NCBI GenBank assembly: GCA_015485495.1
Contig: WFTL01000180.1
Location: 1 to 49,530, forward strand
Source of the DNA: Planctomycetaceae bacterium
GTDB lineage: Bacteria > Planctomycetota > Planctomycetia > Planctomycetales > Planctomycetaceae
Length of the DNA: 49,530 bases
Direction: 5' to 3'
Shown here: one piece after another, positions 16,276-33,060 of the stretch
Numbering within the stretch: the stretch's first letter is position 1
Layout: each line of letters starts with the position of its first letter
Translations under genes and position numbers: made by a program
The notes under the pieces: generated by a model
Seen by the model: only the letters and a program-made list of their open reading frames with translations
Told to the model about the DNA's origin: nothing
Database searches by the model: none

Positions 16276-16461
16276 ATCATCTGCATCGGTTCGTCTTCTG
16301 CGGCACGCACAATCAATACGACCGTTACAGCTTGACAGGTCGGCCCCTGGCGGCATCCGGCGGGGGATTTCATGCGGAGATGAAGGGAATTCCTGCGGAC
16401 CGGGCCCGCGGATGCGGTCCGTCCGCAGGGATGAATCCGGGTGGCGCTGTTCCCGGGCGGG

Positions 16462-17838: not shown

Positions 17839-19616
17839 CCAGGTTCCTCACCGGCCAGAATCACTTCCAGAATCGTGCCGGAACCCGCCGCCGAAGCAAC
17901 GCGGAACCGGCCTCCCAGCATACTGACGCGTTCCTTCATTCCCACCAGGCCCAGACCGCCGGTCGCCTCGTCGGGATCGAATCCGACGCCGTCGTCCTCA
18001 ATCCGCAGACAGCGGCGCCGCGTGCCTCCGGAAAACGAAATTGTCACGCGGGACGCATGGGCGTGCTTCATGATGTTCGTCAGACCTTCCTGAATGATTC
18101 GATACAAAGCGGTCTGCTCGCTTTCCGACCGCACCAGGCCGCTCTGAACAGCCACGCTCACCCGGAACGGAGCATGAGAACACATGTCGGTGACCAGCTG
18201 CCTCACGGCCGCTTCCAGATCGAGATCGTCGAGTGTCGGCGGCCGCAGCTTCCGGGCCAGATCCCGCAGGGACACCGCAGCCGCATTGACCACAGTGCGC
18301 AACTCCGCAAGCTGTTCTCTGGCTTCGCTCTGATCATCGGTCAGCAGTCCCGACAGAATCTGCAGACGCAGTTTCAGACCGATCAGCACCTGTCCGGTTT
18401 CGTCGTGCAGTTCTCTGGCGATGTGACGGCGTTCCTGTTCCAGACGCCGCAGATGGTCCTGAGACAGGCTGCGGATTTTTTCCGTTTTCAGCTTCAGGGA
18501 CCGCATGAGACGGGCGTTCTCAATGGCCACGGCCGCCGTGTTTCCCAGCGTTTCCAGAAAAGCCGCATCCTGCCACGTGAATTCCGGCTCCCCCGATCGC
18601 CGGTGAAGCTGAAAAAAACCGAGAACTTCTTCCTGAGGATTCTTGATGGGCACACAGATGGCCGATCCCAGATCGAAGCTGCGACACAGATCCGATTCCC
18701 GCAGCGGATCCTTTCGGTAATCGCGACTCAGAAAAGGAAACTGCGTTTCCATGACGGTCCCGGGAATGCCTTCGCCGCGGCGCCACGTTCTGCGAAAATC
18801 CGTCCACAGTCCGGCACACCAGAACCCGTCGCACTGGAGTTCCGCATGCGGCCCCGATCCGATGGCCAGTCCCGCCATGCCGCCTTCTGCATCGAGAAAC
18901 CCGGTCACGTTCATGACCAGCCGACGCACCATTTCCTCCGGTTCCAGATGCTGATTGATCGTGGCATTGAATGACAGCAGCGTTTCGATGGACTGCTTCC
19001 ATTCTTCTATCCGAAAGAACAGCCGGGCCCGATCGACAGCGGTCGTGGCCAGACGCGCCAGACACCAGGCCGCGCGGACATCGTGTTCCGTGAACACGCC
19101 GCCCGTTTTGCGGTTGCGGAATTCGATGACTCCCAGAACCCGGTTCTGAGAAGCCACCAGTGGAACACACAGGATGCTGCGGGCCGCGTCCGGATCATCC
19201 ACCGGCATATTGCGGGTCTTCGGTTTCAGATAACGCACGCACCAGCGGACTTCTTCGCTGACGGTGTCACTGCTGCCTGCAGGCGTGGTCGGAACACCCG
19301 ATTCCACGGAAACGCGGCCATCGGAACAGGAATACACAGTCACCTGTCCGGAAGGCACGATGGTGCTGCCGTGCAGCGCGATTTCCGTGAACAGATCCCG
19401 AAGATCCAGCTGCACAGCGAAACACTGTGCAGCCGCGGAAAGCTGTTCCATTGCTCTCAGAGCATTCCGCAGTTGCCGTCGGACGTCGTCGTTCTGCCGC
19501 CGGGCGGCCGCCGGGGTCCCGTTCCACGATGGTTCGAACGGCCCGGCCGCCGTCAGTTCTTCGAACAGGCCGGTTTGGTCAGCCGGCGCCGCTGTGTTCG
19601 CAGAAACCGAATCCAC
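17835..19616 (-). CDS. NarL-type sensor histidine kinase with two GAF domains
   Basis: The 593-residue soluble kinase has two GAF-like domains (about 60-200 and 215-370), then the HisKA_3 dimerisation helix with the phospho-accepting His404 (HIARELHDETGQVLIGL). A HATPase_c domain follows with Asn514 (LTNIMKHAHA), DDGVGF (541-546) and GLGLVGM. With no membrane segment it should sense a cytoplasmic signal through the GAF domains, perhaps redox or a small ligand. The best start is GTG at 19616, which lies 64 bases inside hypB; the next in-frame Met is residue 56, so the N-terminus is uncertain. It is coupled to the response regulator. Confidence 0.92.
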   Translation of the reverse strand: MDSVSANTAAPADQTGLFEELTAAGPFEPSWNGTPAAARRQNDDVRRQLRNALRAMEQLSAAAQCFAVQLDLRDLFTEIALHGSTIVPSGQVTVYSCSDGRVSVESGVPTTPAGSSDTVSEEVRWCVRYLKPKTRNMPVDDPDAARSILCVPLVASQNRVLGVIEFRNRKTGGVFTEHDVRAAWCLARLATTAVDRARLFFRIEEWKQSIETLLSFNATINQHLEPEEMVRRLVMNVTGFLDAEGGMAGLAIGSGPHAELQCDGFWCAGLWTDFRRTWRRGEGIPGTVMETQFPFLSRDYRKDPLRESDLCRSFDLGSAICVPIKNPQEEVLGFFQLHRRSGEPEFTWQDAAFLETLGNTAAVAIENARLMRSLKLKTEKIRSLSQDHLRRLEQERRHIARELHDETGQVLIGLKLRLQILSGLLTDDQSEAREQLAELRTVVNAAAVSLRDLARKLRPPTLDDLDLEAAVRQLVTDMCSHAPFRVSVAVQSGLVRSESEQTALYRIIQEGLTNIMKHAHASRVTISFSGGTRRRCLRIEDDGVGFDPDEATGGLGLVGMKERVSMLGGRFRVASAAGSGTILEVILAGEEPG

Positions 19617-20242
19617 TCATCCACCCCGTCGCCTGTCTTTGCGGATACTTCCAGCACCGGCATCTCCGGGCGCACCGATTGTATGTTCTCCAGAGCCTGG
19701 ATGCGATCAAACTCACAGGGTTCCGCCAGATCGATCTTCGTAATGACGGCCGCATCCGACGTGTTGAACAGCCCGGGATACTTCAGGGGTTTGTCTTCGC
19801 CTTCGGTCACCGACAGCAGGGCCACCCGCACCGATTCCCCCAGATCCCAGCTCGTCGGGCAGACCAGATTGCCGACGTTCTCGATGAACAGATGATCCAG
19901 ATCCGCCAGATTCCAGCCGGCCAGATGGTCTCGAACCATGTCGGCTTCCAGATGACAGCAGCCGTGCGTCATGATCTGGCGTACGGGCACGCCGCTTTCC
20001 GCCAGGCGGCGGGCGTCGTTGTCCGTTTCCAGATCGCCCACCACAGCAGCCGCTCGTTCGCCGTCCGCGGCAAGCCGCATCAGAGTCTCGCGCAGCAGCG
20101 TCGTCTTGCCGGTACCGGGGCTGGACACCAGGTTGGTCACCAGGACTCCGGCATCCAGAAACTGCTGCCGCATTTCCCGGGCCGTTTCGTCGTTCTTTTT
20201 CAGAACCTTCGTTCGCACTTCCAGAATGCGGGGTTCCATCAT
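19553..20242 (-). CDS. hypB: Hydrogenase nickel-incorporation GTPase HypB
   Basis: HypB is the GTPase that, with HypA, inserts nickel into the hydrogenase large subunit. The 229 residues show Walker A SSPGTGKTTLL, the metal-site segment THGCCHLEADMV, ENVGNLVCP and the guanine-specificity region TKIDLAEP. The N-terminal CxxCGC high-affinity nickel site and the His-rich stretch found in some HypB proteins are absent, so nickel storage is not expected. It overlaps the hypA stop by four bases. Its last 64 bases overlap the proposed start of the sensor kinase. Confidence 0.96.
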   Translation of the reverse strand: MMEPRILEVRTKVLKKNDETAREMRQQFLDAGVLVTNLVSSPGTGKTTLLRETLMRLAADGERAAAVVGDLETDNDARRLAESGVPVRQIMTHGCCHLEADMVRDHLAGWNLADLDHLFIENVGNLVCPTSWDLGESVRVALLSVTEGEDKPLKYPGLFNTSDAAVITKIDLAEPCEFDRIQALENIQSVRPEMPVLEVSAKTGDGVDEWIRFLRTQRRRLTKPACSKN

Positions 20243-20634
20243 GACGTCTCCCTGGCTGCCGACGCGGACACCTGGGAAGATGGTCCGCCCTCAGTGATCT
20301 CAATCGTTTCGATTTCCAGTTCGCGTCCCTGCCGCACATCGGCCGTGGCCGTTCCGCACACCGGACAGGCGAACTTCTGAATCCCGGGCAGTTCCACCTG
20401 CTGTTGGCAGGACGGACAGAACACGGCGACCGGAACGTCGATGAACTTCAGAACGGCTCCTTCCAGCAGCGTGTCCTTCGTGATCAGGTCGAAACTGAAC
20501 TCCAGAGCCTCCTGATGCACACAGGACAACTGTCCCAGACGCAGCGTCACGGCCGTGACCTGCAGAGCTCCGTGCTCCTGGGCGTAGTCCGATACGATTT
20601 CCACAATGCTGCCGGCAATGGACAGTTCATGCAT
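20239..20634 (-). CDS. hypA: Hydrogenase nickel-incorporation protein HypA
   Basis: HypA is the nickel metallochaperone partner of HypB. The 131 residues start MHELSIAGSI, whose His2 is the nickel-binding residue in the family. The zinc site has two CxxC pairs (CPSC, CPVC). The C-terminus has a longer Ser/Ala tail than typical HypA of about 115 residues. It lies between the DUF1641 gene and hypB. Confidence 0.96.
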   Translation of the reverse strand: MHELSIAGSIVEIVSDYAQEHGALQVTAVTLRLGQLSCVHQEALEFSFDLITKDTLLEGAVLKFIDVPVAVFCPSCQQQVELPGIQKFACPVCGTATADVRQGRELEIETIEITEGGPSSQVSASAARETS

Positions 20635-20658
20635 GGGAACACCCGCCAGGCCGGAACA

Positions 20659-21492
20659 CTATTTCAGATGTTTCGCGAAGGCTTTGGCGAACGCAAAAAA
20701 GAATCCGATGGTTTTCTGGACATCGGGATCGCGGCTGGCCCGCAGTGTTCCCATCAGTCCTCCTGTCGGAGGCACCGGGCGGGACGACACTTCGTGCCAC
20801 GTTTCCACCGCTTTTCGGCCCGTGTCTCCCAGTATACCGACCAGCTCCGGGTCGAGCATTCCGGAATCGATCATGGTCACGGCCGCATCGAGCACGCGGG
20901 AAAACCGGTCGCCCAGAAGATCGGAGTGGAGCAGTCTTTCGCCCGCCTCCCGCAGTTTCGGCAGGGAATCCAGAACCGACACGGCCGATGCCAGTTCGGC
21001 AAGCCGTTCTTCGAGTTTCAGTTCGCCGACCGCGTCCGACACGTTGTCGGCAATCGTTTCTCCCCGGGACAGAAGCTGTTCCAGCGATTCCGCGACGAAC
21101 ACCAGCAGCGGCAGACGATCGAGAAGCCGGTTGAGCGTTTCCAGAGTCTCCGGACAGGACAGGCGTCGCAGAACCTGTGAACGGACCAGGGCCTCGGTGT
21201 CCACATCGGCGGCCGCCTGCGTCAGTCGCATCCCGGTCTGCAGCATCTGCGGTGCCTGCTGCAGACACTCCGCGGCCGACTCCCCGTCGGCCTGCCGCAG
21301 TTCCGCCACTCCCTGCGTCAGGGATTCGGCGATCACTTCGCTCCGGGCAAGAAACTCATCCGCCGATTCGACGGCGAAGGAAATCGTGTCCAGGTGGTCC
21401 AGAAGCCGGTTCAGACCTTCGGCCACCTGAGGATCCTTCAGACGCGCCTGCAGGTTCTCTGCAGCCGAAGCAGCCTCCGCGGACGTTGACAT
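20659..21492 (-). CDS. DUF1641-type protein of the hydrogenase locus
   Basis: This 277-residue soluble, helical protein is rich in Leu, Ala, Glu and Asp. The C-terminal segment GLMGTLRASRDPDVQKTIGF followed by a helix ending in Lys resembles the DUF1641 domain, which is found near hydrogenases and formate dehydrogenases. The earlier part looks like two copies of a helical unit (LLDHLDTISFAVESADEFL about 36-55; LLDRLPLLVFVAESLEQLL about 117-135). The ATG at 21492 is preceded by GGGAG at about eight bases; the longer frame upstream was rejected. It heads the leftward operon, diverging from the structural genes. Its role is unproven. Confidence 0.8.
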   Translation of the reverse strand: MSTSAEAASAAENLQARLKDPQVAEGLNRLLDHLDTISFAVESADEFLARSEVIAESLTQGVAELRQADGESAAECLQQAPQMLQTGMRLTQAAADVDTEALVRSQVLRRLSCPETLETLNRLLDRLPLLVFVAESLEQLLSRGETIADNVSDAVGELKLEERLAELASAVSVLDSLPKLREAGERLLHSDLLGDRFSRVLDAAVTMIDSGMLDPELVGILGDTGRKAVETWHEVSSRPVPPTGGLMGTLRASRDPDVQKTIGFFFAFAKAFAKHLK

Positions 21493-21708
21493 GAGACGTT
21501 CTCCCTTCTGAACGAACCGGGATGAAGATGTCCGGATGCCGCACCGCCGTGAGAGCGTCGCACAAAAAAAAATGAACACAATGGCATCAACATGCTATTT
21601 CCATCTGTGCCGCAGCGAAGAAGATTCTCTGCATCATCAGCAGAATCATTTCGGCCGGATACCAGCCGCCCCGCGACTCGCACCGGTCGACCGACGGAGT
21701 CTTCCTTC
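21493..21708. promoter_or_regulatory. Divergent control region of the hydrogenase locus
   Basis: Both arms of the hydrogenase locus start here. The region includes an AT-rich island with nine consecutive A (21564-21572), rare in this GC-rich window. It also holds an imperfect inverted repeat at 21623-21647 (GATTCTCTGC, seven bases, GCAGAATC). I could not fix a -35/-10 pair with confidence. The boundaries depend on the start chosen for the transporter gene. Confidence 0.4.
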
Positions 21709-22446
21709 TTGGCCAGCGATCTTTCCATCCTTTCGGCCACCGCGTTTTCCACGGGTGTGCTGCACACGATTCTTGGACCGGATCACTATGTGCCTTTTGT
21801 CGCTCTGGCCCGCAGCCGCATGTGGTCTGTTCGGAAGCTGATCACCGTGACCGTCCTGTGCGGTCTGGGCCATGTCGCCGGATCCGTCGTCATCGGCACG
21901 GTCGGTCTGCTGCTGGGAACGGCCGTCCTGCGTCTGGAAGCTCTGGAATCGCTGCGCGGCGACGGAGCCGCCTGGCTGCTGATCGGATTCGGTCTGGCAT
22001 ATTTCGTCTGGGGGACGGTTCAGGCATTTCGCGACGTGCCGCACACACATCTGCATGCCCACGCAGACGGAACCGTCCATTGCCATCTGCACCGGCACGA
22101 CGCCGAACATCGTCACGTGCACGATTACGAAACCATGGCGGCTGCGGATACCGAAACACCCCGCCGATCGATCACGCCATGGATCCTGTTCCTGATCTTC
22201 GTGTTCGGTCCCTGTGAAGTCCTCATTCCTCTGCTGATGTATCCGGCCGCCCATGCCAGCGCGGCTGCTGTGGTTCTGGTCGTCGCCGCATTCACCATCG
22301 GCACTGTGGGCACCATGGTCTCCGCAGTGCTGCTTCTTGTGTATGGAATCCGTCGTGTTCCGGTCCCGCACGGGCATCACTTCGGTCATGCGGCCGCCGG
22401 CCTGGCCGTCCTGGCCTGCGGGGCGCTGATGAAACTGGGGCTGTGA
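21709..22446 (+). CDS. NicO/UreH-like membrane transporter with His-rich loop
   Basis: The protein has about 245 residues and six hydrophobic segments. The first holds GVLHTILGPDHYVPFVALAR, a His-then-Asp-His motif resembling the metal site of nickel/cobalt permeases of the NicO/UreH type, although the usual spacing is four residues and here it is five. A cytoplasmic or periplasmic loop has 11 His in 27 residues (DNA 22042-22122), a likely metal buffer. Its position at the head of a [NiFe]-hydrogenase operon suggests nickel supply. TTG at 21709 is chosen for its GGAG and because upstream residues look non-coding; ATG at 21592 gives 284 residues. Confidence 0.7.
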   Translation: MASDLSILSATAFSTGVLHTILGPDHYVPFVALARSRMWSVRKLITVTVLCGLGHVAGSVVIGTVGLLLGTAVLRLEALESLRGDGAAWLLIGFGLAYFVWGTVQAFRDVPHTHLHAHADGTVHCHLHRHDAEHRHVHDYETMAAADTETPRRSITPWILFLIFVFGPCEVLIPLLMYPAAHASAAAVVLVVAAFTIGTVGTMVSAVLLLVYGIRRVPVPHGHHFGHAAAGLAVLACGALMKLGL

Positions 22447-22468
22447 TCTGAAACCGGGTCCGTTATTT

Positions 22469-22493
22469 CAGGTGTGTCTGTTCACAGGTGTGT
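22469..22493 (+). repeat. Direct repeat before the hydrogenase small-subunit gene
   Basis: Two copies of CAGGTGTGT lie 16 bases apart (22469-22477 and 22485-22493), about 75 bases before the small-subunit ATG in the 119-base gap after the transporter gene. This could be a pair of regulator half-sites on roughly the same helix face (one and a half turns apart). No matching promoter is identified. Confidence 0.35.
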
Positions 22494-22565
22494 TTCCTGT
22501 CGTTCTGCCCAGGCTTCAGCGGGTTTCGAAACGACAGCCATTTCCGTTCATTCAGGGAGTCGACC

Positions 22566-23537
22566 ATGGCATCATTACTCTGGCTTCAGGGCGGAGCCTG
22601 CAGCGGGAACACAATGTCGTTCCTCAACGCGGAAGAACCCAGCGCCTGTGATCTGGTGACCGATTTCGGCATCGACGTGCTGTGGCATCCGTCACTGGGA
22701 ATGGACATGGGAGACAATGTCCAGAACATGCTCCGCGAAATCACATCGGGGCAGCGGGAACTGGACATCTTCGTGTTTGAAGGCACGGTCATTCTGGGTC
22801 CGGGCGGATCGGGTCGGTTCAATATGTTCGCCGACCGACCGATGAAGGACTGGGTCAGTGAGCTGTCCGCCCAGGCCAATGCCGTCGTGGCTCTGGGCGA
22901 CTGTGCCTGCTGGGGAGGCATTCCGGCCAACGCCCCGAACCCCACCAACAGTGTGGGTCTGCAGTATCTCAAGCGGGACCACGGCGGTTTCCTGGGCGCG
23001 GAATTCCGGTCCCGCTGGGGTCTGCCGGTGATCAACATTCCCGGCTGCCCGGCGCATCCGGACTGGGTCACTCAGATTCTGGTGGCCATCGCCAGCGGCC
23101 GTGCCGCTGATATCGCGCTGGACGACCTGCAGCGTCCGCAGACATTTTTCAAAACCTTCACACAGACCGGCTGCACGCGCAATCAGTTCTTCGAATACAA
23201 GCAGTCGACCATGGAATTCGGCCAGGGCACGCGAACGGGCTGTCTGTTTTACGAATTCGGCTGCCGCGGCCCCATGACGCATTCGCCGTGCAATCGGATT
23301 CTGTGGAATCGGCAGTCGTCGAAAACCCGTGCCGGCATGCCGTGCACCGGATGCACGGAACCGGAATTTCCTTTTTACGATCTGGCACCGGGAACGGTCT
23401 TCAAAACTCAGAAGATCGGCGGCGTGATTCCGCGGGACGTCCCGGAAGGAACGGATCACGTCACCTACATGGCTCATGCGGCCGCCGCCCGCGTGGCTTC
23501 GCCGCAGTGGGCCCGGGAAGATCTGTTCGTCGTCTGA
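22566..23537 (+). CDS. hhyS: [NiFe]-hydrogenase small subunit, group 1h-like
   Basis: The 323-residue small subunit carries the iron-sulfur relay from the NiFe site. The N-terminus MASLLWLQGGACSGN has no Tat signal, so the enzyme stays on the cytoplasmic side. The proximal-cluster region has Cys12 but Asn15 where CxxC enzymes have the second Cys, plus Cys113 (GDCACWGG) and Cys161 (PGCPAHPDW). Distal ligands are Cys203, Cys226 and Cys233, with Gln200 where His is usual. Medial ligands are Cys242, Cys260 and Cys263. Three Cys per cluster fits the three [3Fe-4S] clusters known for mycobacterial Huc. There is no C-terminal membrane anchor. GGGAG six bases upstream fixes the ATG. Confidence 0.93.
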   Translation: MASLLWLQGGACSGNTMSFLNAEEPSACDLVTDFGIDVLWHPSLGMDMGDNVQNMLREITSGQRELDIFVFEGTVILGPGGSGRFNMFADRPMKDWVSELSAQANAVVALGDCACWGGIPANAPNPTNSVGLQYLKRDHGGFLGAEFRSRWGLPVINIPGCPAHPDWVTQILVAIASGRAADIALDDLQRPQTFFKTFTQTGCTRNQFFEYKQSTMEFGQGTRTGCLFYEFGCRGPMTHSPCNRILWNRQSSKTRAGMPCTGCTEPEFPFYDLAPGTVFKTQKIGGVIPRDVPEGTDHVTYMAHAAAARVASPQWAREDLFVV

Positions 23538-23627
23538 ACTTCGGACCGGCTGCTGTCCCGCCTGCGGGGTTCCGCCTGTCTGTATCGCATTCGTCACCAT
23601 CCATTCTGGTACCGGGAGCAGGAAACC

Positions 23628-25238
23628 ATGACTGCAGCAACGCCGATGAGGATCAGTCCGCTGGGCCGCGTGGAAGGCGATCTGGATCTGAAACTGGAAA
23701 TCACGGACGGTGTCGTTTCCGATGCCTGGACCGAAGCCAGCATGTTCCGCGGCTTCGAAATCATCCTGAAAGGAAAGGACCCCCAGGCCGGACTCATCGT
23801 CACCCCGCGGATCTGCGGCATCTGCGGCGGCAGCCACCTGTACAAAGCCTGCTACGCACTCGATACGGCCTGGGAAACGCACGTTCCGAGAAACGCCACG
23901 CTCATCCGCAACATCGCTCAGTGCTGTGAAACGCTGCAGTCGATTCCGCGCTGGTTCTACGCTCTGTTCGCCATCGACCTGACAAACAAAAACTATGCGG
24001 ACCTGCCGGAATATGAAGAGGTCGTCCGCCGATTCGCTCCGTTCGTGGGAACCAGCTATGAAAAAGGCGTGACTCTTTCCGGAAAGCCGGTGGAAGTCTA
24101 CGCCATCTTCGGCGGCCAGTGGCCTCATTCCAGCTTCATGATTCCCGGCGGGGTCATGTGCGCTCCGACTCTGGCCGACGTCACGAGGTCCGTGGCCATT
24201 CTGGATTACTGGAAACGCGAGTGGCTGGAAAACACCTGGCTGGGATGTTCCATCGAACGGTGGATGGAAAATCGCACGTGGAACGACATTCTGGAATGGG
24301 CCGACGAAAACGACAGTCAGCGGAATTCCGACTGCGGTCTGTTCCTGCGGTTCGCTCAGGCGGCCGGTCTGGATCAGTACGGTCAGGGATGCGGCAGTTT
24401 TCTGGCCACGGGCACCTATTTCCAGCCCGAACTTTATGAAACCCCCACTATCGACGGGCGCAACGCGGCCCTGATCAACCGGGCCGGTGTCTACGATGGT
24501 TCGGACTTCCACGATTTCGATCACCTGAATGTTCGGGAATCGACGGCTCATTCCTTCTTCCGGGGCGACACCTTCCTGCACCCGTGGGAAGGCCGCACCG
24601 AACCTGTCGACCCTCAGGACGGCCAGAAGCAGGGCAAGTACAGCTGGGCCAAATCGCCTCGGTATGAAGTTCCCGGAAAGGGAGCCATCCCGCTGGAAGC
24701 CGGCCCGCTGGCGCGGCAGGTGATCGCCGGACGTCCCGGTGCGGCCGACCACCAGGACCACGATCCGCTGTTTCTGGATGCCATTCAGACCAAAGGCCCC
24801 AGCGTTCTGGTTCGTGTCATGGCCCGCATGCACGAAGCCTGCAAGTACTACAAACTGGCTCAGAAATGGCTCAGCGAAATCGACCTGCACGAAAAGTTCT
24901 ATACGAAACCGACGGAACCGGAATCCGGACGCGGTTTCGGGTCCACGGAAGCAGCACGAGGATCACTGTCTGACTGGATCGTTCTGGAGAACGGCAAAAT
25001 CGAAAACTATCAGGTGGTCACGCCGACGGCCTGGAACATCGGCCCGCAGGACGGAAATGCGGTCCACGGCCCGATGGAACAGGCCTTCATCGGGGCTCCC
25101 GTGAAAGATCCTTCAGATCCGGTGGAAATGGGGCACGTGGCCCGTTCTTATGATTCGTGTCTGGTGTGCACCGTGCACGCGTACGACGGAAAAACGGGAC
25201 GGGAACTGTCTCGGTTCCGAATCGGGGAAGGATCCTGA
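23628..25238 (+). CDS. hhyL: [NiFe]-hydrogenase large subunit, group 1h-like
   Basis: The 536-residue catalytic subunit splits H2 at the NiFe(CN)2CO site. The L1 motif is RICGICGGSH (Cys63, Cys66) and the L2 motif DSCLVCTVH (Cys511, Cys514, His517), with Ser where DPCxxC enzymes have Pro. A 19-residue tail follows His517 and should be cut off by the maturation protease encoded next. The overall sequence pattern, including HLYKACYALDTAW, resembles the high-affinity group 1h (formerly group 5) enzymes of actinobacteria, which oxidise H2 down to atmospheric levels. AGGAAA precedes the ATG. It is co-transcribed with the small subunit. Confidence 0.95.
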   Translation: MTAATPMRISPLGRVEGDLDLKLEITDGVVSDAWTEASMFRGFEIILKGKDPQAGLIVTPRICGICGGSHLYKACYALDTAWETHVPRNATLIRNIAQCCETLQSIPRWFYALFAIDLTNKNYADLPEYEEVVRRFAPFVGTSYEKGVTLSGKPVEVYAIFGGQWPHSSFMIPGGVMCAPTLADVTRSVAILDYWKREWLENTWLGCSIERWMENRTWNDILEWADENDSQRNSDCGLFLRFAQAAGLDQYGQGCGSFLATGTYFQPELYETPTIDGRNAALINRAGVYDGSDFHDFDHLNVRESTAHSFFRGDTFLHPWEGRTEPVDPQDGQKQGKYSWAKSPRYEVPGKGAIPLEAGPLARQVIAGRPGAADHQDHDPLFLDAIQTKGPSVLVRVMARMHEACKYYKLAQKWLSEIDLHEKFYTKPTEPESGRGFGSTEAARGSLSDWIVLENGKIENYQVVTPTAWNIGPQDGNAVHGPMEQAFIGAPVKDPSDPVEMGHVARSYDSCLVCTVHAYDGKTGRELSRFRIGEGS

Positions 25239-25297
25239 CCGTTTGACCAGGGAACGACCGATTTCCCGTTCCCCGGCGGCCGCTGATCCCCGGAAGA

Positions 25298-25858
25298 ATG
25301 ACCGATCCCATGTCCGCTGAATGTTCTGTCGATGCCTTCGACCCGTCGCTGCCGCGGACCAGCGGCTGCGACACGCTCATCATCGGATGCGGCAATCTGC
25401 TGCGCGGCGACGACGCGACCGGCCCGGTTCTGATACAGCGCATGTGGGCCCGCGGCCTGCCAGCGCACGTGCACTGCGCGGACGGCGGCACCGGCGGCAT
25501 GGATGTCGCCTTCCAGATGCGGGGAGTCCGCCACGTCATTCTGGTCGACGCCTGCCGCTCCGGCAGCGATGCCGGGACGATCTTCGAAGTGCCGGGGCAC
25601 GAAGTGGAAGAACTGCCGCCGCTGACGGGAATCCATCTGCACGCCTTCCGCTGGGACCATGCTCTGGCGTTTGCCCGATGGCTGCTGGCCGACGATTATC
25701 CGCAGCAGGTGACCGTTTTTCTGATCGAAGGCACATCTTTCGATCCGGGGGCCGCTCTGTCACCGGCTGTCGATGCGGCCGTGAATCGGCTTGCCGATCA
25801 CCTTTTTCAGGTGATTCATTCGTCCGTTCCGGAAAAGAACCATGACCGCAGTTCCTGA
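25298..25858 (+). CDS. Hydrogenase maturation endopeptidase (HybD/HyaD family)
   Basis: The protease removes the C-terminal tail of the large subunit once nickel is in place. The 186 residues contain LIIGCGNLLRGDDATG (about 27-42, the GxGN..L.DD motif with metal-binding acids), DGGTGGMD (62-69), LVDACRSG (83-89) and His113/His115 near the expected third ligand. The length is slightly above the usual 160 because of an N-terminal extension of about 20 residues; Met5 is an alternative start. It lies 59 bases after the large subunit and its end overlaps the next gene by 17 bases. Confidence 0.9.
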   Translation: MTDPMSAECSVDAFDPSLPRTSGCDTLIIGCGNLLRGDDATGPVLIQRMWARGLPAHVHCADGGTGGMDVAFQMRGVRHVILVDACRSGSDAGTIFEVPGHEVEELPPLTGIHLHAFRWDHALAFARWLLADDYPQQVTVFLIEGTSFDPGAALSPAVDAAVNRLADHLFQVIHSSVPEKNHDRSS

Positions 25859-26180
25859 ACAGGTCACGGACTGCCGCGCATCCGTTCTTCTTTCGCGCGA
25901 CGGCTACCTGCGGCTGTCCCGGCAGGACGCCGCGCGTTTTTTTCCTGAGGACACATTGCTGGTCATCTGGCGACACGGCGTGCTGTATCTGCTTCCGACC
26001 CGCGGAGCGGCCGCCGGCGGCCTGCTGCTGAAACAGCGCAATGCTGTCGGAGACCGGAGCGTGCTGATTTCTGAAGCATTCGCATTCGACATCCCCGAGG
26101 GACGTTTCCCGGCCCGCTGGGATGACACCGTCGGCGGTCTGCGGGTTAGTCTCAGTCAGGGGGAATCGGCCGATGAATGA
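25842..26180 (+). CDS. Small hydrogenase-operon protein of unknown function (112 aa)
   Basis: This soluble 112-residue protein has alternating beta-like segments (SVLLSRDGYLRLSRQDAARF, LLVIWRHGVLYLLPTRGAA, GGLRVSLSQ). No Cys pair or membrane segment is present, and no family is recognised. It overlaps the protease gene by 17 bases and the following gene by 8, so it is firmly part of the operon and a candidate assembly factor or partner of the hydrogenase. Confidence 0.7.
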   Translation: MTAVPEQVTDCRASVLLSRDGYLRLSRQDAARFFPEDTLLVIWRHGVLYLLPTRGAAAGGLLLKQRNAVGDRSVLISEAFAFDIPEGRFPARWDDTVGGLRVSLSQGESADE

Positions 26181-26466
26181 TCCCCGTCTGCAGACCGGTT
26201 TCTCCGGAAGCTCCCCGGTTCCGTTCCATGCGATGGACGCCGTCGCACACGTCACTCAGGAAAACGGCCGCTGGGTGGTCCTGCTGAATGTCCTGTCCTG
26301 GGAACCCGGCAGCGGCGATCACCCGGTTGTCAATCACTGGAAACGCATCTGCGACTGTTCCACGGAACAGGAAGCTGTCACAAAGGCCTCCTGGATCGAA
26401 CGGGCTGCCGGCCGCACCATTCGTCCGCTTTCCGATTTCCAGACCCGCATGGGAGCGTCGGAATGA
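26173..26466 (+). CDS. Small hydrogenase-operon protein of unknown function (97 aa)
   Basis: A 97-residue soluble protein with HAMDAVAHVTQENGRWVVLL, a Trp-rich middle (SWEPGSGDHPVVNHWKRIC) and a charged C-terminus. No known motif was recognised. The ATG at 26173 is supported by AGGGGGA about eight bases upstream; an earlier in-frame ATG at 26122 lacks such a site. It overlaps the genes on both sides by a few bases, which implies coupled translation with the TPR protein. Confidence 0.7.
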   Translation: MNDPRLQTGFSGSSPVPFHAMDAVAHVTQENGRWVVLLNVLSWEPGSGDHPVVNHWKRICDCSTEQEAVTKASWIERAAGRTIRPLSDFQTRMGASE

Positions 26467-27704
26467 TCGATCTGCGTCCTCAGCCCGTCGGAATTTTCCC
26501 TTTTCCTGCCGACAGTCTTCTGCTGCCGCCGGTTCCGGATGACCAGGGGGCCCTGGCCGCTCTGCTGAACGGCGACGCATCGGCATGCGTGCCGGATGAA
26601 TGGGCCTTCTTCACTGCCGCGATACACGGCAGCCGTGAACAGGCGCTGTCTCTGCTGCCCGACAGCGACGCCCCGCTGACCCGGTTCAACCGTTTCGTTC
26701 TGCAGCCGACGCAGCAGACATTCGACAGCGCCGCCCAGGCCGCCACCGGCCCCCTGCGGACTTTTCTGGATGTTTCCGCCTACACCACCGGATTCACCGA
26801 TGCCATCAATTCTTCGTCGGAACTGGACGGGGAGCTGCTGGCGGCATCCCTGGCCGCTCAGGCAGCCGCACACATCGAACAGGAACAAACAGCCTCCGCG
26901 CTGAACCTGCTTCAGGAAGCCGCTGCAGCCGCACGCCCGGTCTCGCCGCTTTACGCGGCTCTGCTGCTGGCCCAGCGTGCCGACCTGACTGCGGAAAATC
27001 CCGAACGAACGCCTGCTCAGGCCCTTCAGGATCTCCGGGAAGCTCTCGCGCTGGCAGAGAACTGTCGGCTGCCGCTTTTCGAAGCTCAGCTTCTCATGAA
27101 AACCGGCATGCTGCTGCAGGACACCGCCGATGGACAGCGTTCGGCGCTTTTGGAAGCGGTGCGCTGTTATCAGGCGGCTCTGCAGAAGGGAATGACGCAG
27201 GAACAGCACCCGCGGCTTTTCGGTCAGCTTCAGAACAATCTGGGGCTCGCCTGGCTGTCCATGCCCGCCGTGGATTCCAGTCATCAGCTCCGCACCGGAA
27301 TTGCCGTCCAGTCGTTTCGGTATGCCCTGAAGGTCTTCACGAAGGACCAGGACCCCGACCTGTGGGCCAGCGTCAGCATGAATCTGGCCAATGCCCTGCA
27401 GTATGCTCCCAGTTCCCATCCGGAACAGAATCTCATCCAGGCCGTTGAAATCTACGAAGACGTTCTCAGTGTTCGCACCCGTGCCCGGGATCCGGAATCT
27501 CACGCACGGGTCCTGCTGAACCAGGCGAACGCTCTGGCTCATCTGGGCATGTTTCGCCCGGCCGTCGAAAAACTGTCGGAAGCGTATCGGCTGTTTCACT
27601 GCTGGCATCGCTTCGAAGAAGCAGCGGCTGCTGAAGAACTGCTGGACCAGATCAGCCGCCTGTCGGATCAGCAGAAACAGACGGTCGGCACGTCTCCCGA
27701 ATGA
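26463..27704 (+). CDS. TPR-repeat protein of the hydrogenase operon
   Basis: The 413-residue protein is almost all helical, with several tetratricopeptide-like units in the second half (LLEAVRCYQAALQKG, AVQSFRYALKVFTK, AVEIYEDVLSVRTRARD, ANALAHLGMFRPAVEKLSEA). TPR proteins act as scaffolds. TPR genes are, from memory, recurrent neighbours of group 1h hydrogenases, so an assembly or docking role is inferred. It starts in an ATGA overlap with the preceding gene. There is no signal peptide. Confidence 0.82.
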   Translation: MIDLRPQPVGIFPFPADSLLLPPVPDDQGALAALLNGDASACVPDEWAFFTAAIHGSREQALSLLPDSDAPLTRFNRFVLQPTQQTFDSAAQAATGPLRTFLDVSAYTTGFTDAINSSSELDGELLAASLAAQAAAHIEQEQTASALNLLQEAAAAARPVSPLYAALLLAQRADLTAENPERTPAQALQDLREALALAENCRLPLFEAQLLMKTGMLLQDTADGQRSALLEAVRCYQAALQKGMTQEQHPRLFGQLQNNLGLAWLSMPAVDSSHQLRTGIAVQSFRYALKVFTKDQDPDLWASVSMNLANALQYAPSSHPEQNLIQAVEIYEDVLSVRTRARDPESHARVLLNQANALAHLGMFRPAVEKLSEAYRLFHCWHRFEEAAAAEELLDQISRLSDQQKQTVGTSPE

Positions 27705-27722
27705 CCCCAAAAACAGCCAGCC

Positions 27723-28088
27723 ATGGATCTGTACGAAAAACAGCAGTTCAGTTTTTTCCTGCAGACAGCAACGGAACGCTGCGTGACCCGACTGGAAGAA
27801 CGGTTTCGCGGCCCGGACGCCGCTCTGGAACACCTGCAGGCCGATCCGGAAGGCGACGGGGTGCAGCTGAGTGCGTTCACGGATGCCCTGTTCGAAGATT
27901 TTCTGCTGAACAGCGTGGACGGAGCCTGTTTTGTTCTTTCGGCACTGCCGAACCGGCACACATCCGTCACCGAACCGGCCACGGTGGAAGAAACACTCAT
28001 CAGACTGGCCAAAACTCTGTTCACCGAACTGCTTGTTCAGAAAACCACGGAGGCTCTGGAGCAGCGTTCCCGTTATCAGTCCGTCTGA
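27723..28088 (+). CDS. Small hydrogenase-operon protein of unknown function (121 aa)
   Basis: This acidic, mostly helical 121-residue protein starts MDLYEKQQFSFFLQTATERC. Central stretches are LSAFTDALFEDFLLNSVDGA and EETLIRLAKTLFTELLVQKT. It has two scattered Cys (20, 69) and no metal motif. It lies between the TPR gene and the NifU-Rieske gene, 18 and 76 bases away. I do not recognise the family. Confidence 0.65.
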   Translation: MDLYEKQQFSFFLQTATERCVTRLEERFRGPDAALEHLQADPEGDGVQLSAFTDALFEDFLLNSVDGACFVLSALPNRHTSVTEPATVEETLIRLAKTLFTELLVQKTTEALEQRSRYQSV

Positions 28089-28164
28089 CGGATTCCGGAC
28101 GATTCCCCGACCTGCTGCGGGTACAGACAGCCATTCCGCAGAACATTCCACCGAATGATCAGCC

Positions 28165-29046
28165 ATGACACCGACCACTGCATCTTCTCCCGCGGATTCC
28201 GGCGAAACGGCGAACAGCAGTCTGGAACAGCTCGCCGCACAGGTCGACCGTGCGGTCGCCGATATCCGCGCTCTTCCGGATGATGTTCAGGACAAAGCGA
28301 TGGCCCTGAAGTCGGCCGTGGAATCCTTTCACCGTGCCGGTCTGGAGCACATCGTGCGCACCCTGCGATCCGATCCGGTCGGCAAAGACATTCTGCTCGA
28401 TCTGGTCCGCGAACCGGCCGTGTACGCCCTGTTCACGATGCACGGTCTGGTGCGTCCGGATCGCACCACGCAGGTCAGCCGGGTGATTGAAATGGTTCGG
28501 CCGTATCTGCAGTCTCACGGGGGAGATGTCCGCCTGGTCGATGTCCGCGGCAGCACGGTTCTCGTGCAGCTTTCCGGAAACTGCAGCGGCTGTTCCATGT
28601 CTTCCGTGACGCTGCACAGCACCGTTGAAGAAGCCCTGAAGGAACACATTCCGGAAATCGAACGGGTGGAAGTCGTCCCCGATGAAACAGCTCCTCTGGT
28701 ACCGCTGAAACTGTCTCCTGATCCCGAAGACACCCATGGATGGGTTCCGGGACCTTTGGTGAGCGAGCTGACGGATGAAGGCCCCTTCGTTTTCGAAGCG
28801 GACGGCACGTCCGTTCTGCTGGTGCCGTCTGGCAAGGGACTGCGGGCCTGGAGAAACGCGTGTGCTCACCAGGGCCTGCCCCTGGACAATGCCGTTTTCG
28901 ATCCGGAAACCGATACGCTCACCTGTCCCTGGCATGGCTTCCGATTCGACGGTGAGTCCGGAGAATGTTTTTCGGCTCCGCAGTGCCAGATGGAACCATT
29001 CCCGCTGCGAATCGAAGACGGCCGCATCTGGGTCCGCCCCTCGTGA
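28165..29046 (+). CDS. NifU C-terminal domain fused to Rieske [2Fe-2S] protein
   Basis: The 293 residues hold three parts. An N-terminal helical region (about 15-95) is followed by a NifU C-terminal-like Fe-S scaffold domain (about 102-170) with SHGGDVRLVDV and the cluster cysteines Cys140 and Cys143 (CSGC). A Rieske domain (about 192-290) follows with Cys233-x-His235 (CAHQGLPL) and Cys254-x2-His257 (CPWHGFRF). Such fusions are known beside group 1h hydrogenases. It could deliver clusters, accept electrons from the small subunit, or both; this is inference. No signal peptide is seen, so it is cytoplasmic. Confidence 0.9.
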   Translation: MTPTTASSPADSGETANSSLEQLAAQVDRAVADIRALPDDVQDKAMALKSAVESFHRAGLEHIVRTLRSDPVGKDILLDLVREPAVYALFTMHGLVRPDRTTQVSRVIEMVRPYLQSHGGDVRLVDVRGSTVLVQLSGNCSGCSMSSVTLHSTVEEALKEHIPEIERVEVVPDETAPLVPLKLSPDPEDTHGWVPGPLVSELTDEGPFVFEADGTSVLLVPSGKGLRAWRNACAHQGLPLDNAVFDPETDTLTCPWHGFRFDGESGECFSAPQCQMEPFPLRIEDGRIWVRPS

Positions 29047-29061
29047 AAGCATCTGAGTGCC

Positions 29062-30354
29062 ATGTCATGCTTTGCTGATTCGCCGTCTGACATTCCGGTG
29101 GTTCGGATATCGCAGAACGAACCGCCTGCCGACCACGTGCCCGCTCAGACATCCCTGTGCCTGGGCCGGCCACTCGTTCGGCTGGGAGCGGCCTCACCAT
29201 TTGGACTGGCCCTTCCGGATGCGTCTCCGACCGCTGCCACCATGTATGCTCCCCGCGGCGTCTGGCTGGATGACCGTCGGCTGGTCGTCTGCGATTCCGG
29301 AAATCACCGGATTCTGATCTGGCATTCGGTACCGGACGCCGACGACACGCCGGCCGATGTGGTCCTGGGACAGCCGGATTTCGCATCGGAAGGCCCGGCC
29401 GCCGGGCGCCGGGGTCCGGACAACGGCGTCCACCTTCCCGTCGGCGTGACGATTGTCGACGACACGCTGATCGTGGCCGATGCCTGGCACCACCGCATCC
29501 TTTTCTGGAACTCGGTTCCCCGGCAGTCCGACACGCCGCCGGATTTTGCACTGGGCCAGCCGACCCTGCATGATGTGGAAACGAACCGCGGCTCCCGTCC
29601 TTCCCGAAACGGGTTCTACTGGCCCTACGGAATCGCCTGGATCGACAATCGGTTTTACGTCACCGACACAGGCAATCGGCGTCTTCTGTTCTGGGACGGA
29701 CTGCCGCGTACCGATCGGCCGGCCGACGGCGTGCTGGGCCAGCCGGACGACCGATCGATGGAAGAAAATCGCGGCGGGCCGGTCCGTTCGGATTCCTTTC
29801 GCTGGCCGCATGACGTGACCGGATGGCGGGGGCAGTTACTGGTGGCCGATGCCGGCAACCATCGTGTGCTCGGCTGGCACCGAACGCCGCAGCACGATAT
29901 GCCGGCCGACTTCGTTCTCGGTCAGGACAGCTTCACTTCAGCCGACGAACTGCCGTACACCGCCCCGGGTGCTCAGAAACTGCGATTTCCCTATGCCGCC
30001 GATGTGTGCGGACGTGTTCTGGCTGTCGCCGACACCGCCAACAATCGTATTCTGTTCTGGAGAATGCCTGTGGAACAGATGTGTTCGGCACCGGCCATGA
30101 ATGTCATCGGACAGACGGATTTTTCCGGCAACGGGGAAAACCGATGGGACGCCGTGGACAGCACGACTTTGTGCTGGCCCTACGGCATCCGTTTTCATCA
30201 GGGAATTCTGGCGGTCGCCGATTCCGGAAACAATCGCGTCGTGCTGTGGGACTGCCGGGAGATTCTGGAGTATGCGGAAGCGGCCGCCACCGGCGGCGAT
30301 GCGTCCGTCACGACGGTGTCTCCGGATTCGGCATCCCCGGCGCCCGGCCTCTGA
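29062..30354 (+). CDS. NHL-repeat beta-propeller protein
   Basis: The 430 residues form about six NHL-type blades, each with the pattern VADxxNHRILxW (VVCDSGNHRILIW, IVADAWHHRILFW, YVTDTGNRRLLFW, LVADAGNHRVLGW, AVADTANNRILFW, AVADSGNNRVVLW). These alternate with LGQ(P/D) segments. It is a classic beta-propeller with no signal peptide, so it is probably cytoplasmic. NHL proteins are recurrent in group 1h hydrogenase operons; a scaffold role is inferred. It starts 15 bases after the NifU-Rieske gene. Confidence 0.88.
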   Translation: MSCFADSPSDIPVVRISQNEPPADHVPAQTSLCLGRPLVRLGAASPFGLALPDASPTAATMYAPRGVWLDDRRLVVCDSGNHRILIWHSVPDADDTPADVVLGQPDFASEGPAAGRRGPDNGVHLPVGVTIVDDTLIVADAWHHRILFWNSVPRQSDTPPDFALGQPTLHDVETNRGSRPSRNGFYWPYGIAWIDNRFYVTDTGNRRLLFWDGLPRTDRPADGVLGQPDDRSMEENRGGPVRSDSFRWPHDVTGWRGQLLVADAGNHRVLGWHRTPQHDMPADFVLGQDSFTSADELPYTAPGAQKLRFPYAADVCGRVLAVADTANNRILFWRMPVEQMCSAPAMNVIGQTDFSGNGENRWDAVDSTTLCWPYGIRFHQGILAVADSGNNRVVLWDCREILEYAEAAATGGDASVTTVSPDSASPAPGL

Positions 30355-30426
30355 ATGACGACACGGCACCGAATCCACACTCGAAACACAGAACCAGCAG
30401 AAACCGATTCAACAGGAACGAAAACC

Positions 30427-30723
30427 ATGTGCCTTGCTGTCCCCGGATGTGTGGAAGAAATCTATGACGAGGCGGGAACCCGCATGGGCCGCGTCCGATT
30501 CGGCAGTGTGGTTCGAGATGTCTGCCTGGCGTACCTGCCGGATCTGCAGGTGGGTGAATACACGATCGTGCACGTCGGGTTCGCCATCAGCCGCATCGAC
30601 GAAGAATCGGCTCAAAAAACGCTGCAGACCTTCGATGAACTGGGACTTCTGGAAGAAGAACTGGAAGAAATGCAGCGAACATCTTCCGACACCCGTTCCT
30701 CGTCCGCACCGACGCCCCGATGA
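30427..30723 (+). CDS. hypC: Hydrogenase maturation chaperone HypC
   Basis: HypC carries the Fe(CN)2CO unit between HypD and the large subunit. The 98-residue protein begins MCLAVPGCVEEI, with the essential Cys2 exposed after Met removal, and has VGEYTIVHVGFAISRID with the conserved His. The Ser/Thr-rich C-terminal tail is longer than usual. The ATG at 30427 is certain from the MCLAVPG motif; an earlier in-frame ATG would bury Cys2. Confidence 0.96.
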   Translation: MCLAVPGCVEEIYDEAGTRMGRVRFGSVVRDVCLAYLPDLQVGEYTIVHVGFAISRIDEESAQKTLQTFDELGLLEEELEEMQRTSSDTRSSSAPTPR

Positions 30724-30774
30724 CTCACGCCGCCATTCGACCCGCCGCAGTCCCCGAACCGGAAGGAGCATCCC

Positions 30775-31893
30775 GTGAAGTATCTCGACGAATACCGCGA
30801 CGGACAGAAGTGCCGCCGTCTGGCCGATGAAATCAGCCGTCTGGTCACCCGTCCGTGGTCCATCATGGAGGTCTGCGGCGGCCAGACGCACTCCATCATC
30901 CGCAACGGAATCGATCAGATTCTGCCGGATGAAATCACCATGATTCACGGTCCCGGCTGTCCGGTGTGCGTCACGCCTTTGAAAATGATCGACCGTGCTC
31001 TGTCCATCGCTGCCCGTCCCGAAGTCATTTTCTGTTCGTTTGGAGACATGCTGCGTGTGCCGGGATCGAAAGACGATCTGTTCCGCATTCGGGCCGCCGG
31101 CGGCGATGTCCGGCTGGTCTATTCCCCGCTGGATGCGGTGACGATCGCTCAGGACAACCCGGACCGGGAAGTCGTGTTTTTCGCCATCGGTTTCGAAACA
31201 ACGGCTCCGGCCAACGCCATGGCCGTGAAGATCGCCGCCCGGCGGGGGCTGTCGAACTTTTCGATGCTGGTTTCCCATGTGCTCGTCCCGCCGGCCATTG
31301 AAGCCATCATGAGGGCTCCTGGATGCCGCGTGAATGCATTTCTTGCAGCCGGACATGTGTGCTGCGTCACCGGATTCCGACAGTATCCGCCTCTGTGCGA
31401 ACAGTACGGCGTTCCCATTGTCGTCACCGGCTTCGAACCGCTCGATATTCTGGAAGGTATCCGCCGGGCCGTCGTCCAGCTCGAAAACGGACAGGCATTC
31501 GTGGAAAACGCCTACGCCCGCGTCGTGTCCGAACAGGGCAACACGGCCGCTCAGGCGGTGCTGGATGAAGTCTTCCAGGTCACGGACCGAGGCTGGCGGG
31601 GAATCGGCGTGATTCCCCGCAGCGGCTGGAAGCTTTCGGACACCTGGAGGGATTTCGATGCCGAATACCGATTCCCCGCGGACGACATCCAGACCTGCGA
31701 GTCGGATCGGTGTCGGGCCGGAGAAGTTCTGCAGGGAACCATTCGTCCCGACCAGTGCGAAGCCTTCGGACGCGAGTGCACTCCGCGAACGCCTCTGGGA
31801 GCCACCATGGTGTCCAGCGAAGGCGCCTGTGCCGCATATTACAATTATGGTCGGTTCGTGGCTCTCGAACCCGCCTCCTCCGGCCGCTCCTGA
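30775..31893 (+). CDS. hypD: Hydrogenase maturation Fe-S protein HypD
   Basis: HypD is the [4Fe-4S] scaffold where the Fe(CN)2CO unit is built. The 372 residues show [11 protein letters not shown] (Cys34), [11 protein letters not shown] (Cys62, Cys65), a FxxGFETT motif ([14 protein letters not shown]) and the Cys-rich C-terminal region with [16 protein letters not shown]. The start is GTG at 30775 with a strong GGAAGGAG six bases upstream. It lies 51 bases after hypC. Confidence 0.97.
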
Positions 31894-31971
31894 CAGTGCT
31901 GCAGAGCAGGGCGCGCCGTTCCGTGAAGAGGCGGGCCGGGAACCCGATCGATTCCCAGGAAACCCCTTTTG

Positions 31972-33060
31972 ATGTCAGATCCACCCATCGGTTCTCCGGA
32001 AACTTCCGCCGTTCCGTTCCACGGACCGAACTGTCCGGTACCGCTGACCGACTATCCCCGCATCGTGCCGGGACACGGCGGCGGCGGCGTGCTTTCGGCC
32101 GAACTGGTCGAACAGATCTTTCTCCCCGCATTCGGCCGGCCCGGGGAATCCGGTGCGCTGAGAGATTCGGCCGTGTTTTCGGCACACGGAGGCCGTCTGG
32201 CGTTTTCCACGGACTCTCATGTCGTGCGGCCTCTGTTCTTTCCCGGCGGTTCCATCGGCCACCTGGCCGTCAACGGCACGGTGAACGATCTGGCCATGTC
32301 CGGCGCCGATCCGATTCACCTGAGTGCCGCCTTCATTCTGGAAGAAGGGTTTTCCACAGCCGACCTGAAACGCATTGCCGATGACATGGGTGCTGCGGCG
32401 GAGAAGGCAGGGGTCCGCATCATCACAGGAGACACCAAAGTCGTCGACCGGGGGCACGGCGACGGCTGCTATATCAGCACCGCCGGCATCGGCATCGTTC
32501 CGGACGGCATCGACATCGCTCCGGACCGGGCGGTCCCGGGAGACGCCGTGATCGTCAGCGGCACCATCGGCGATCATGGCATGGCCGTCATGAGCGTGCG
32601 TGAAGGCCTCGAGTTCGACGCGGAAATCGTCAGCGACTGTGCCCCTCTGAACGACATGGTGTCCGCCATGATCTCCGAATGCCCGGACATCCATGTGCTG
32701 CGCGATCCCACACGCGGCGGTCTGGCTGCCAGCCTCAACGAAATCGCCTCTGCCTCCCGCTGCGGCATCGTCCTCGAAGAAACCCGCCTGCCGGTCAATG
32801 ACACCGTCCAGTCCGCCTGCGAGATGCTGGGGCTGGATCCGCTGCTGGTCGCCTGCGAAGGCCGGCTCGTCTGCATCACTCCGGCCGACACCGCCGATGC
32901 CCTCATTCAGGTGATGCAGTCCTTCGAACAGGGAAGCCGGGCCGCGGTCGTCGGGACCGTCGTGTCCGATCACGCGGGCATGGTCGTCGGCCGGACGGCC
33001 ATCGGAGCCACACGGGTGATCACGCTCCCCATCGGCGAACAGCTTCCGCGCATCTGCTGA
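31972..33060 (+). CDS. hypE: Hydrogenase maturation protein HypE
   Basis: HypE is an ATP-dependent dehydratase that turns a carbamoyl group on its C-terminal Cys into thiocyanate, the source of the iron cyanide ligands. The 362-residue protein ends in PRIC, the required terminal motif. It shows the PurM-like ATP-binding features (AFSTDSHVV, NGTVNDLAMSGADP, GDTKVVDRG, RDPTRGGLAASLNEIA). The ATG at 31972 is preferred over a TTG one codon earlier. hypF, which supplies the carbamoyl group, is not in the window. It is the last gene of the operon and converges with waaA. Confidence 0.96.
   Translation: MSDPPIGSPETSAVPFHGPNCPVPLTDYPRIVPGHGGGGVLSAELVEQIFLPAFGRPGESGALRDSAVFSAHGGRLAFSTDSHVVRPLFFPGGSIGHLAVNGTVNDLAMSGADPIHLSAAFILEEGFSTADLKRIADDMGAAAEKAGVRIITGDTKVVDRGHGDGCYISTAGIGIVPDGIDIAPDRAVPGDAVIVSGTIGDHGMAVMSVREGLEFDAEIVSDCAPLNDMVSAMISECPDIHVLRDPTRGGLAASLNEIASASRCGIVLEETRLPVNDTVQSACEMLGLDPLLVACEGRLVCITPADTADALIQVMQSFEQGSRAAVVGTVVSDHAGMVVGRTAIGATRVITLPIGEQLPRIC

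Follow-up and report, generated by a model that had tools for sequence, protein, structure and literature searches.

A [NiFe]-hydrogenase locus in the genome of a flagellated planctomycete raises the question of which class of enzyme it encodes, what that enzyme would do for its host and whether it is built like its solved relative. The locus lies on contig C180 (WFTL01000180.1; Planctomycetaceae bacterium, assembly GCA_015485495.1), analysed here over its whole length of 49 530 nucleotides (the window) and part of a genome of 4.67 Mb in 180 contigs (98.2% complete, 0.2% contamination). Judged from solved structures, a tree and gene order, the hydrogenase belongs to group 2a (Huc), and we give a probability of roughly 0.87 to the reading that it is a Huc-type enzyme for respiratory H2 uptake in a flagellated planctomycete that lives aerobically and is probably a heterotroph. 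The enzyme itself is ordinary; its scaffold, the HucM subunit, is less so, and carries a doubled unit that is a sequence fact across several phyla.

Both structural subunits found their best PDB match in M. smegmatis Huc (HucL, E 7.3e-263; HucS, E 2e-179). The next solved hydrogenase after Huc stood at 1.3e-63 for HucL and 6.2e-34 for HucS, i.e. about 199 and 145 orders of magnitude behind, while the group 1h subunits HofG and HofK were matched at 1.1e-36 and 3.2e-29 respectively. In a HucL tree of 91 rows, inferred by a quick method with SH-aLRT supports, the window sequence fell inside the 2a clade (support 99) and within a Planctomycetota set (96 for eight rows plus the window, and also 96 for ten plus the window), with Acidobacteriota and Gemmatimonadota as the next to join (98), still inside the Huc radiation. 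The Planctomycetota rows L023 and L051 were placed elsewhere, and the C. necator 2b, 1d, 1h and 3d enzymes lay outside Huc on very long branches whose mutual order is not trusted. Group 2a is not new to the phylum: a published survey of this group has Gemmatimonas and Chloroflexus together in a mixed clade and includes one Planctomycetota genome (PMC7784904), and hydrogenases of an unnamed group have been reported from Planctomycetota metagenome-assembled genomes (MAGs) (PMC10305171).

The huc cluster extends from 17185 to 33060 (Pfam, PDB and synteny) and comprises the following features.

17185–17838, minus strand: response regulator, receiver plus LuxR-type helix-turn-helix (Pfam PF00072/PF00196; synteny)
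17835–19616, minus strand: sensor histidine kinase, two GAF stretches plus HisKA_3 and HATPase (Pfam; PDB matches to VraS/DesK/DevS kinase parts; synteny)
19553–20242, minus strand: hypB, Ni GTPase (Pfam cobW/HypB/UreG family; identity 73–81% to Planctomycetota loci L005, L006 and L008–L012)
20239–20634, minus strand: hypA, Ni metallochaperone (PF01155, E 1e-33)
20659–21492, minus strand: hucM, DUF1641 scaffold/menaquinone-delivery subunit of 277 amino acids with tandem-duplicated unit (PF07849; PDB HucM 7uus_Q, 7utd_Q)
21289–21453, minus strand: HucM unit copy 1 (domain model; aligned with 7utd_Q, the stretch resolved in M. smegmatis Huc)
21016–21174, minus strand: HucM unit copy 2 (domain model; aligned from residue 25 of full HucM 7uus_Q)
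20677–20778, minus strand: HucM DUF1641 C-terminal motif (Pfam)
21592–22446, plus strand: candidate permease for Ni/Co, having a His-rich loop; uncertain (Pfam match below cut-off only)
22566–23537, plus strand: hucS, small subunit (PF01058 + PF14720; 7utd_B, E 2e-179); open reading frame (ORF) from 22488, start probably the ATG at 22566 by comparison with relatives
23628–25238, plus strand: hucL, large subunit (PF00374; 7uus_A, E 7e-263), with a C-terminal extension past CTVH, the point where the solved Huc chains end
25298–25858, plus strand: hydrogenase maturation endopeptidase (PF01750, TIGR00072)
25842–26180, plus strand: conserved Huc-operon protein, 112 amino acids (no family matched; synteny)
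26122–26466, plus strand: small protein, 114 amino acids, homologues in some relatives (no family matched)
26463–27704, plus strand: TPR-like Huc-operon protein (TPR match below cut-off; synteny)
27723–28088, plus strand: conserved Huc-operon protein, 121 amino acids (no Pfam family; homologue between TPR and NifU genes in Thermus)
28165–29046, plus strand: hucE, NifU + Rieske iron-sulphur protein (PF01106 + PF00355; HucE as described in PMC6883350)
29062–30354, plus strand: NHL-repeat protein (PF01436)
30427–30723, plus strand: hypC (PF01455 from residue 25); ORF from 30355, probable start at MCLAVPG, judged by the N-terminal MC motif
30775–31893, plus strand: hypD (PF01924, E 1e-150)
31969–33060, plus strand: hypE (PF00586 + PF02769)

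The genes form two divergent units, as the initial annotation had described: a minus-strand unit in the order hucM-hypA-hypB-kinase-regulator, reaching down to 17185, and a plus-strand unit in the order permease-hucS-hucL-protease-two small genes-TPR-121 amino acid protein-hucE-NHL-hypC-hypD-hypE, ending at 33060. Every gene that it had named is present by Pfam, PDB or synteny, including the DUF1641 gene and the two-component system (both by Pfam), although the nickel permease and TPR assignments are weak. Its limits of 20239–33060 stop short of the lower end of the locus: hypB, kinase and regulator fall entirely or nearly entirely beyond them. The same gene set recurs in relatives of several phyla and the cluster is therefore not a chance assembly. 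HypF is not encoded within it; a zf-HYPF gene was found on contig C72 instead.

The cofactor residues agree with this assignment. Nine HucS cysteines, three per cluster (C38/C139/C187, C229/C252/C259 and C268/C286/C289, a grouping by known motifs), are conserved at 94–100% in 85 rows, with the remaining cysteines of the window protein less conserved (C141 87%; C54 48%), a pattern consistent, as expected, with three [3Fe-4S] clusters. The window residues Tyr327, Lys238 and Tyr255 correspond to M. smegmatis Tyr301, Lys212 and Tyr229 and are kept in 85/85, 84/85 and 82/85 rows respectively, a count that leaves out one C. necator row of group 1d or 2b. In the solved Huc there are three [3Fe-4S] clusters, and menaquinone is bound at these three M. 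smegmatis positions (PMC10017518). Enzymes of this group are expected to be soluble and attached to the membrane, with neither a Tat signal nor a cytochrome b anchor; the window HucS, from its probable start, begins at the catalytic domain, and no cytochrome b gene was among the Pfam matches of the huc cluster.

By analogy, HucL would split H2 and pass electrons through the three HucS clusters to menaquinone at Lys238/Tyr255/Tyr327, while HucM would hold the HucSL lobes and form a hydrophobic tube as the route of quinone from the membrane to the enzyme and back; terminal oxidases would then hand the electrons to O2. The NiFe site would be built by HypA–E and the protease, together with the HypF encoded on another contig. 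M. smegmatis does not consume H2 without HucE (PMC6883350), which acts there by a mechanism not yet understood. The affinity and O2 tolerance of the window enzyme would be expected to follow those of its class. High-affinity uptake, as first claimed for this locus, is a known property of group 2a, attributed here through class membership.

Two COX1-family genes were found in the genome by profile search, which returned no RuBisCO match. Together with a weak and partial NifH match, these results make aerobic H2 scavenging the best fit, with a supplement to heterotrophic energy supply as the likeliest role; that H2 would be a hidden energy source for this organism, as proposed initially, is a reading that we infer. 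Group 2a enzymes of other bacteria also take up H2 below its atmospheric level (PMC7784904, PMC10017518); the gene is a growth-phase gene in the three species tested (PMC7784904), and in Parageobacillus a strong rise came when growth was near zero (PMC12976888).

Several points weigh against this reading. The HucL tree was built quickly, its outgroup branches are very long and it holds no cyanobacterial, 2e or 2f rows. In an alternative view, the enzyme would not take H2 from outside but recycle what a nitrogenase or a fermentative hydrogenase of the same cell produces; recycling of nitrogenase H2 is the classical role of this very class in Cyanobacteria (PMC7784904). One NifH-family match exceeded the cut-off (32 bits, 66/271 positions; nifD was not searched), and a second, group-3-like hydrogenase on contig C65 could make H2. 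The NifH family, however, rings in all 14 control genomes and hence is not specific, so that with a weak, partial NifH match and no RuBisCO both nitrogenase recycling and H2-driven growth by the Calvin cycle lose support. The window moreover sits in a wider clade with rows of Chloroflexus and Gemmatimonas, two genera with species that oxidise atmospheric H2 (C. aggregans and G. aurantiaca; PMC7784904). We regard recycling in place of scavenging as improbable, although the two are not mutually exclusive.

The second hydrogenase set (C65:49076–53760; L085 5077–9761) encodes an Fer4_22 iron-sulphur subunit, an Oxidored_q6 small subunit and a large subunit of 437 amino acids, placed by the tree beside HoxH of C. 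necator (group 3), with a protease-like frame alongside. We take it to resemble a group 3b enzyme.

A contaminated bin, or a decayed and silent cluster, is much less probable still. It draws on the rarity of the locus: a match at E ≤ 1e-100 was found in 1/150 family genomes and 3/392 phylum genomes sampled, the window's own included, and the two other phylum matches were only 43–44% identical; no Huc match was found in either same-genus genome searched. Against it, the GC content of huc (61.5%) is close to that of its flanks (61.9–62.6%) and of four other stretches of the genome (60.6–61.7%), the kdtA-secA flank is syntenic in both same-genus genomes searched (G029 and G071), hypF lies on another contig of the genome and the listed genes have open frames. 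A search for the empty site in G029 and G071 recovered kdtA-secA, but none of the stretches retrieved contained the flagellar flank, so that an empty site could not be shown. The planctomycete origin first suggested is borne out by this flank, by the HucL tree and by a genome scan (419 stretches confirmed, the best 80 kept as L-numbered loci) whose eight best loci are titled Planctomycetota. L015, L017, L023 and L051 bear Planctomycetota titles as well, and identity is 83–87% except for L023 (82%) and L051 (73%). One of these loci (L007) is titled Candidatus Kuenenia stuttgartiensis, while its HucL stands among Pirellulales-like rows; it is perhaps a mis-binned contig. The flagellated state was likewise recovered, FliF, FlgB- and FlgC-like genes adjoining the cluster.

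Finally, the group 1h (Hhy) enzyme of the initial annotation has virtually nothing left in its favour beyond the similar overall content of the C. necator 1h locus (which likewise has hyp genes, a protease gene and a gene of the NifU family), as the large subunit lies outside 1h by PDB matches and tree, the outcome that the initial annotation itself had named as refuting, both subunits match Huc far more closely than HofG and HofK, HucM was discovered as a Huc subunit (PMC10017518), and the NifU protein contains a Rieske domain, the mark of HucE, and not the HhyE architecture of a NifU part with two C-terminal CxxC motifs and no Rieske (PMC6883350). The resemblance to Hhy/Huc enzymes that had been noted is to Huc rather than Hhy.

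With the enzyme placed in Huc, its scaffold can be compared with that of M. smegmatis (PDB 7UUS/7UTD; PMC10017518), which shares with the window HucS, HucL, a DUF1641-bearing HucM, HucE, the cluster cysteines and the quinone-site residues. The window HucM aligns twice to PDB HucM, residues 11–66 with 7utd_Q and residues 108–273 with full-length 7uus_Q, and thus has two copies of the modelled unit, whereas M. smegmatis has one. The 60-residue segment of 7utd_Q (M. smegmatis residues 20–79) was modelled as a tetramer at the centre, on which the HucSL lobes are borne (PMC10017518). The core motif is kept in both window units, while the DUF1641 part is single, both by Pfam in the window protein and in an alignment of 35. 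An AlphaFold model of the window HucM was all-helical (mean pLDDT 77, pTM 0.31) and had no PDB match at Z ≥ 2 (four chains aligned), and so does not confirm a HucM-like fold for either unit. That HucM might be absent, with the permease ahead of hucS in its place, was an earlier idea that fell once hucM was located on the opposite strand, and the small proteins at 25842–26180 and 27723–28088, considered as HucM candidates, matched nothing in the PDB at E up to 10.

Copies of the unit were counted with a hidden Markov model that started from five seeds and was refined by iteration on the same HucM set to which it was then applied. Of the 70 HucM frames scanned, L078, a contig-edge fragment, was excluded from the counts (69 usable hucM loci). 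At least two copies were recognized in 43/69: all Planctomycetota (8/8), Acidobacteriota (10/10), Gemmatimonadota (5/5) and Chloroflexota (18/18), plus one unassigned row and one from Altimarinota with a broken frame. Three copies occurred in two Bryobacter-type Acidobacteriota rows with identical HucL (L013 4337–5431; L014 4337–5431), and a further partial copy in three Chloroflexota rows. The other 26 have a single copy (Actinomycetota 24/24, Thermus and Sulfobacillus). On the HucL tree, the one-versus-more state needs three changes over these 69 rows.

The units are spaced regularly, with a median of 94 residues over 47 intervals and outliers at 64, 64, 109 and 111; both intervals of 64 come from partial third copies. 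When the first linker was used as a model, the segment after the last unit was recognized in 32/43 multi-unit rows and 5/26 single-unit rows, so that the repeat includes the start of the stalk. Between phyla, first units are 38.7% alike and second units 34.2%, compared with 34.1% for first versus second units, and when labels were swapped by group the observed labelling was (with its mirror) the best of 32. A single shared duplication is thus favoured, as far as sequences from five groups, which cannot make a strong case, allow. We found no mention of duplicated HucM units in the available portions of the literature on HucM and DUF1641 hydrogenases, supplements and subscription journals excluded.

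Doubling is also seen in Gemmatimonas and Chloroflexus (L030–L035), whose Huc (PMC7784904) belongs to the same wider HucL clade. Other systems show related parts. In Hys, a group 2e enzyme of Acidianus described in PMC11018855, HysM is a HucM-like subunit modelled as a quinone tube; Hys is archaeal and about 45% identical to Huc, HysM 18% identical to HucM. ForE of the Bacillus formate dehydrogenase ForCE (PMC8808070) is a DUF1641 subunit that couples a soluble dehydrogenase to menaquinone, and the DUF1641-like YjlC (9snk) and 'NDH-2 membrane coupling protein' (9pxk) show weak similarity to the window HucM in its C-terminal part (E 0.03–0.05). The enzyme partners of these last three differ from that of HucM.

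Some Huc loci have no recognizable hucM at all. The gene is missing between hypA and hucS in L010, L011 and L012, and a HucM profile found nothing in the genomes of L007, L010, L011 and L012 (0/4; MAGs of unstated completeness), while those of L005, L009 and L023 were positive (3/3). HucM likewise went undetected in the whole Runella and Bradyrhizobium plasmids and in a plasmid stretch of Sphingopyxis alaskensis (chromosomes not searched), and on these loci HucM would not be universal in group 2a. As S. alaskensis takes up H2 below air level (PMC10305171), HucM would be either dispensable for sub-atmospheric uptake or diverged past recognition; the latter might apply to such loci, as it might to HysM (PMC11018855). 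In L010, HucE (13674–14624) seems to be without the NifU part and its CxxC, with an N-terminal stretch and the Rieske domain only.

The HucM-less planctomycete rows retain the quinone residues themselves. At seven HucS positions (235, 240, 242, 318, 319, 323 and 332), all at most nine residues from quinone-site Lys238 or Tyr327, three of these rows share a residue that no more than one of the 69 rows with HucM has. Control trios of similarly related HucM-bearing rows, 69 in all, reached six such positions at most (mean 0.5), and no trio had more than one near the site. The three rows are related, so that one or two events are represented and not three. Rows elsewhere in which HucM was not detected speak against tying the HucS change to loss of HucM: two from Alphaproteobacteria keep the common residue at F235, S240, P319, D323 and A332 (5/7), and Runella does so at F235, V318 and P319 (3/7).

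These observations lead us to propose, tentatively and with the odds rather against it, that the Huc scaffold outside Actinomycetota is commonly a repeat protein, in which one storey of about 94 residues, comprising the hydrogenase-binding unit and the start of the stalk, was duplicated in a single shared event to give two (in Bryobacter three) rings round one quinone tube. If both units bind hydrogenase, Huc would there be a stack of up to 16 (24) HucSL protomers, not eight, or a ring of fewer chains; a planctomycete side line would have dropped HucM, remodelled the quinone mouth of HucS and now feed quinone otherwise.

The window differs from M. smegmatis also in having a kinase/regulator pair in its hucM-hypA-hypB unit. 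Homologues were counted by similarity within the locus (kinases being a large family) wherever 6.5 kb or more of DNA precedes hucL. Those of both kinase and regulator were present in Planctomycetota (6/8), Gemmatimonadota (5/5) and Chloroflexota (6/16), those of the kinase in 8/10 and of the regulator in 10/10 Acidobacteriota, and in 4/21 and 5/21 Actinomycetota respectively; none was found in the five single loci of other or unassigned phyla (0/5). The Chloroflexus locus L031, unlike the window, is without the pair. In the Planctomycetota, Acidobacteriota and Gemmatimonadota loci whose gene order was inspected and that hold the pair upstream of hucS, L048 excepted, kinase and regulator stood beside hypB wherever hypB was on the contig. 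The GAF kinase and LuxR-type regulator probably control huc expression. Haem-based sensing by the kinase was considered but found no support, the PDB matches to DevS and DosT being confined to the ATPase part.

The candidate permease has homologues in 3/8 Planctomycetota loci with enough upstream DNA and in none from other phyla. Two competing ORFs were discarded: 27701–28168 (plus strand) is out of frame and without a match, the real gene being 27723–28088, conserved in relatives, and 20606–21430 (plus strand), also without a match, opposes the real minus-strand gene at 20659–21492. Among the neighbouring genes, the flagellar FliF, FlgC- and FlgB-like genes occupy 13424–16356 (minus strand) near the regulator end of the cluster, and 46759–48453 (minus strand) encodes an ApbE flavin transferase whose C-terminus is an NqrM-like fusion (Na+-NQR maturation).

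Huc takes part in the enzymatic removal of hydrogen from air. The assembly that we found solved in the PDB is mycobacterial, with a single-unit HucM. If a two-storey scaffold were true of many non-actinobacterial Huc, the clover of eight protomers would not be general and the ratio of enzyme to quinone tube would vary between phyla. The natural series of one-, two- and three-unit and HucM-less enzymes lets it be tested whether HucM serves assembly, quinone delivery or O2 protection, with the HucM-less planctomycete loci as natural test cases for its function. For the phylum, for which the one published group 2a count that we found was a single genome (PMC7784904), the locus represents a concrete, testable capacity for trace-gas use.

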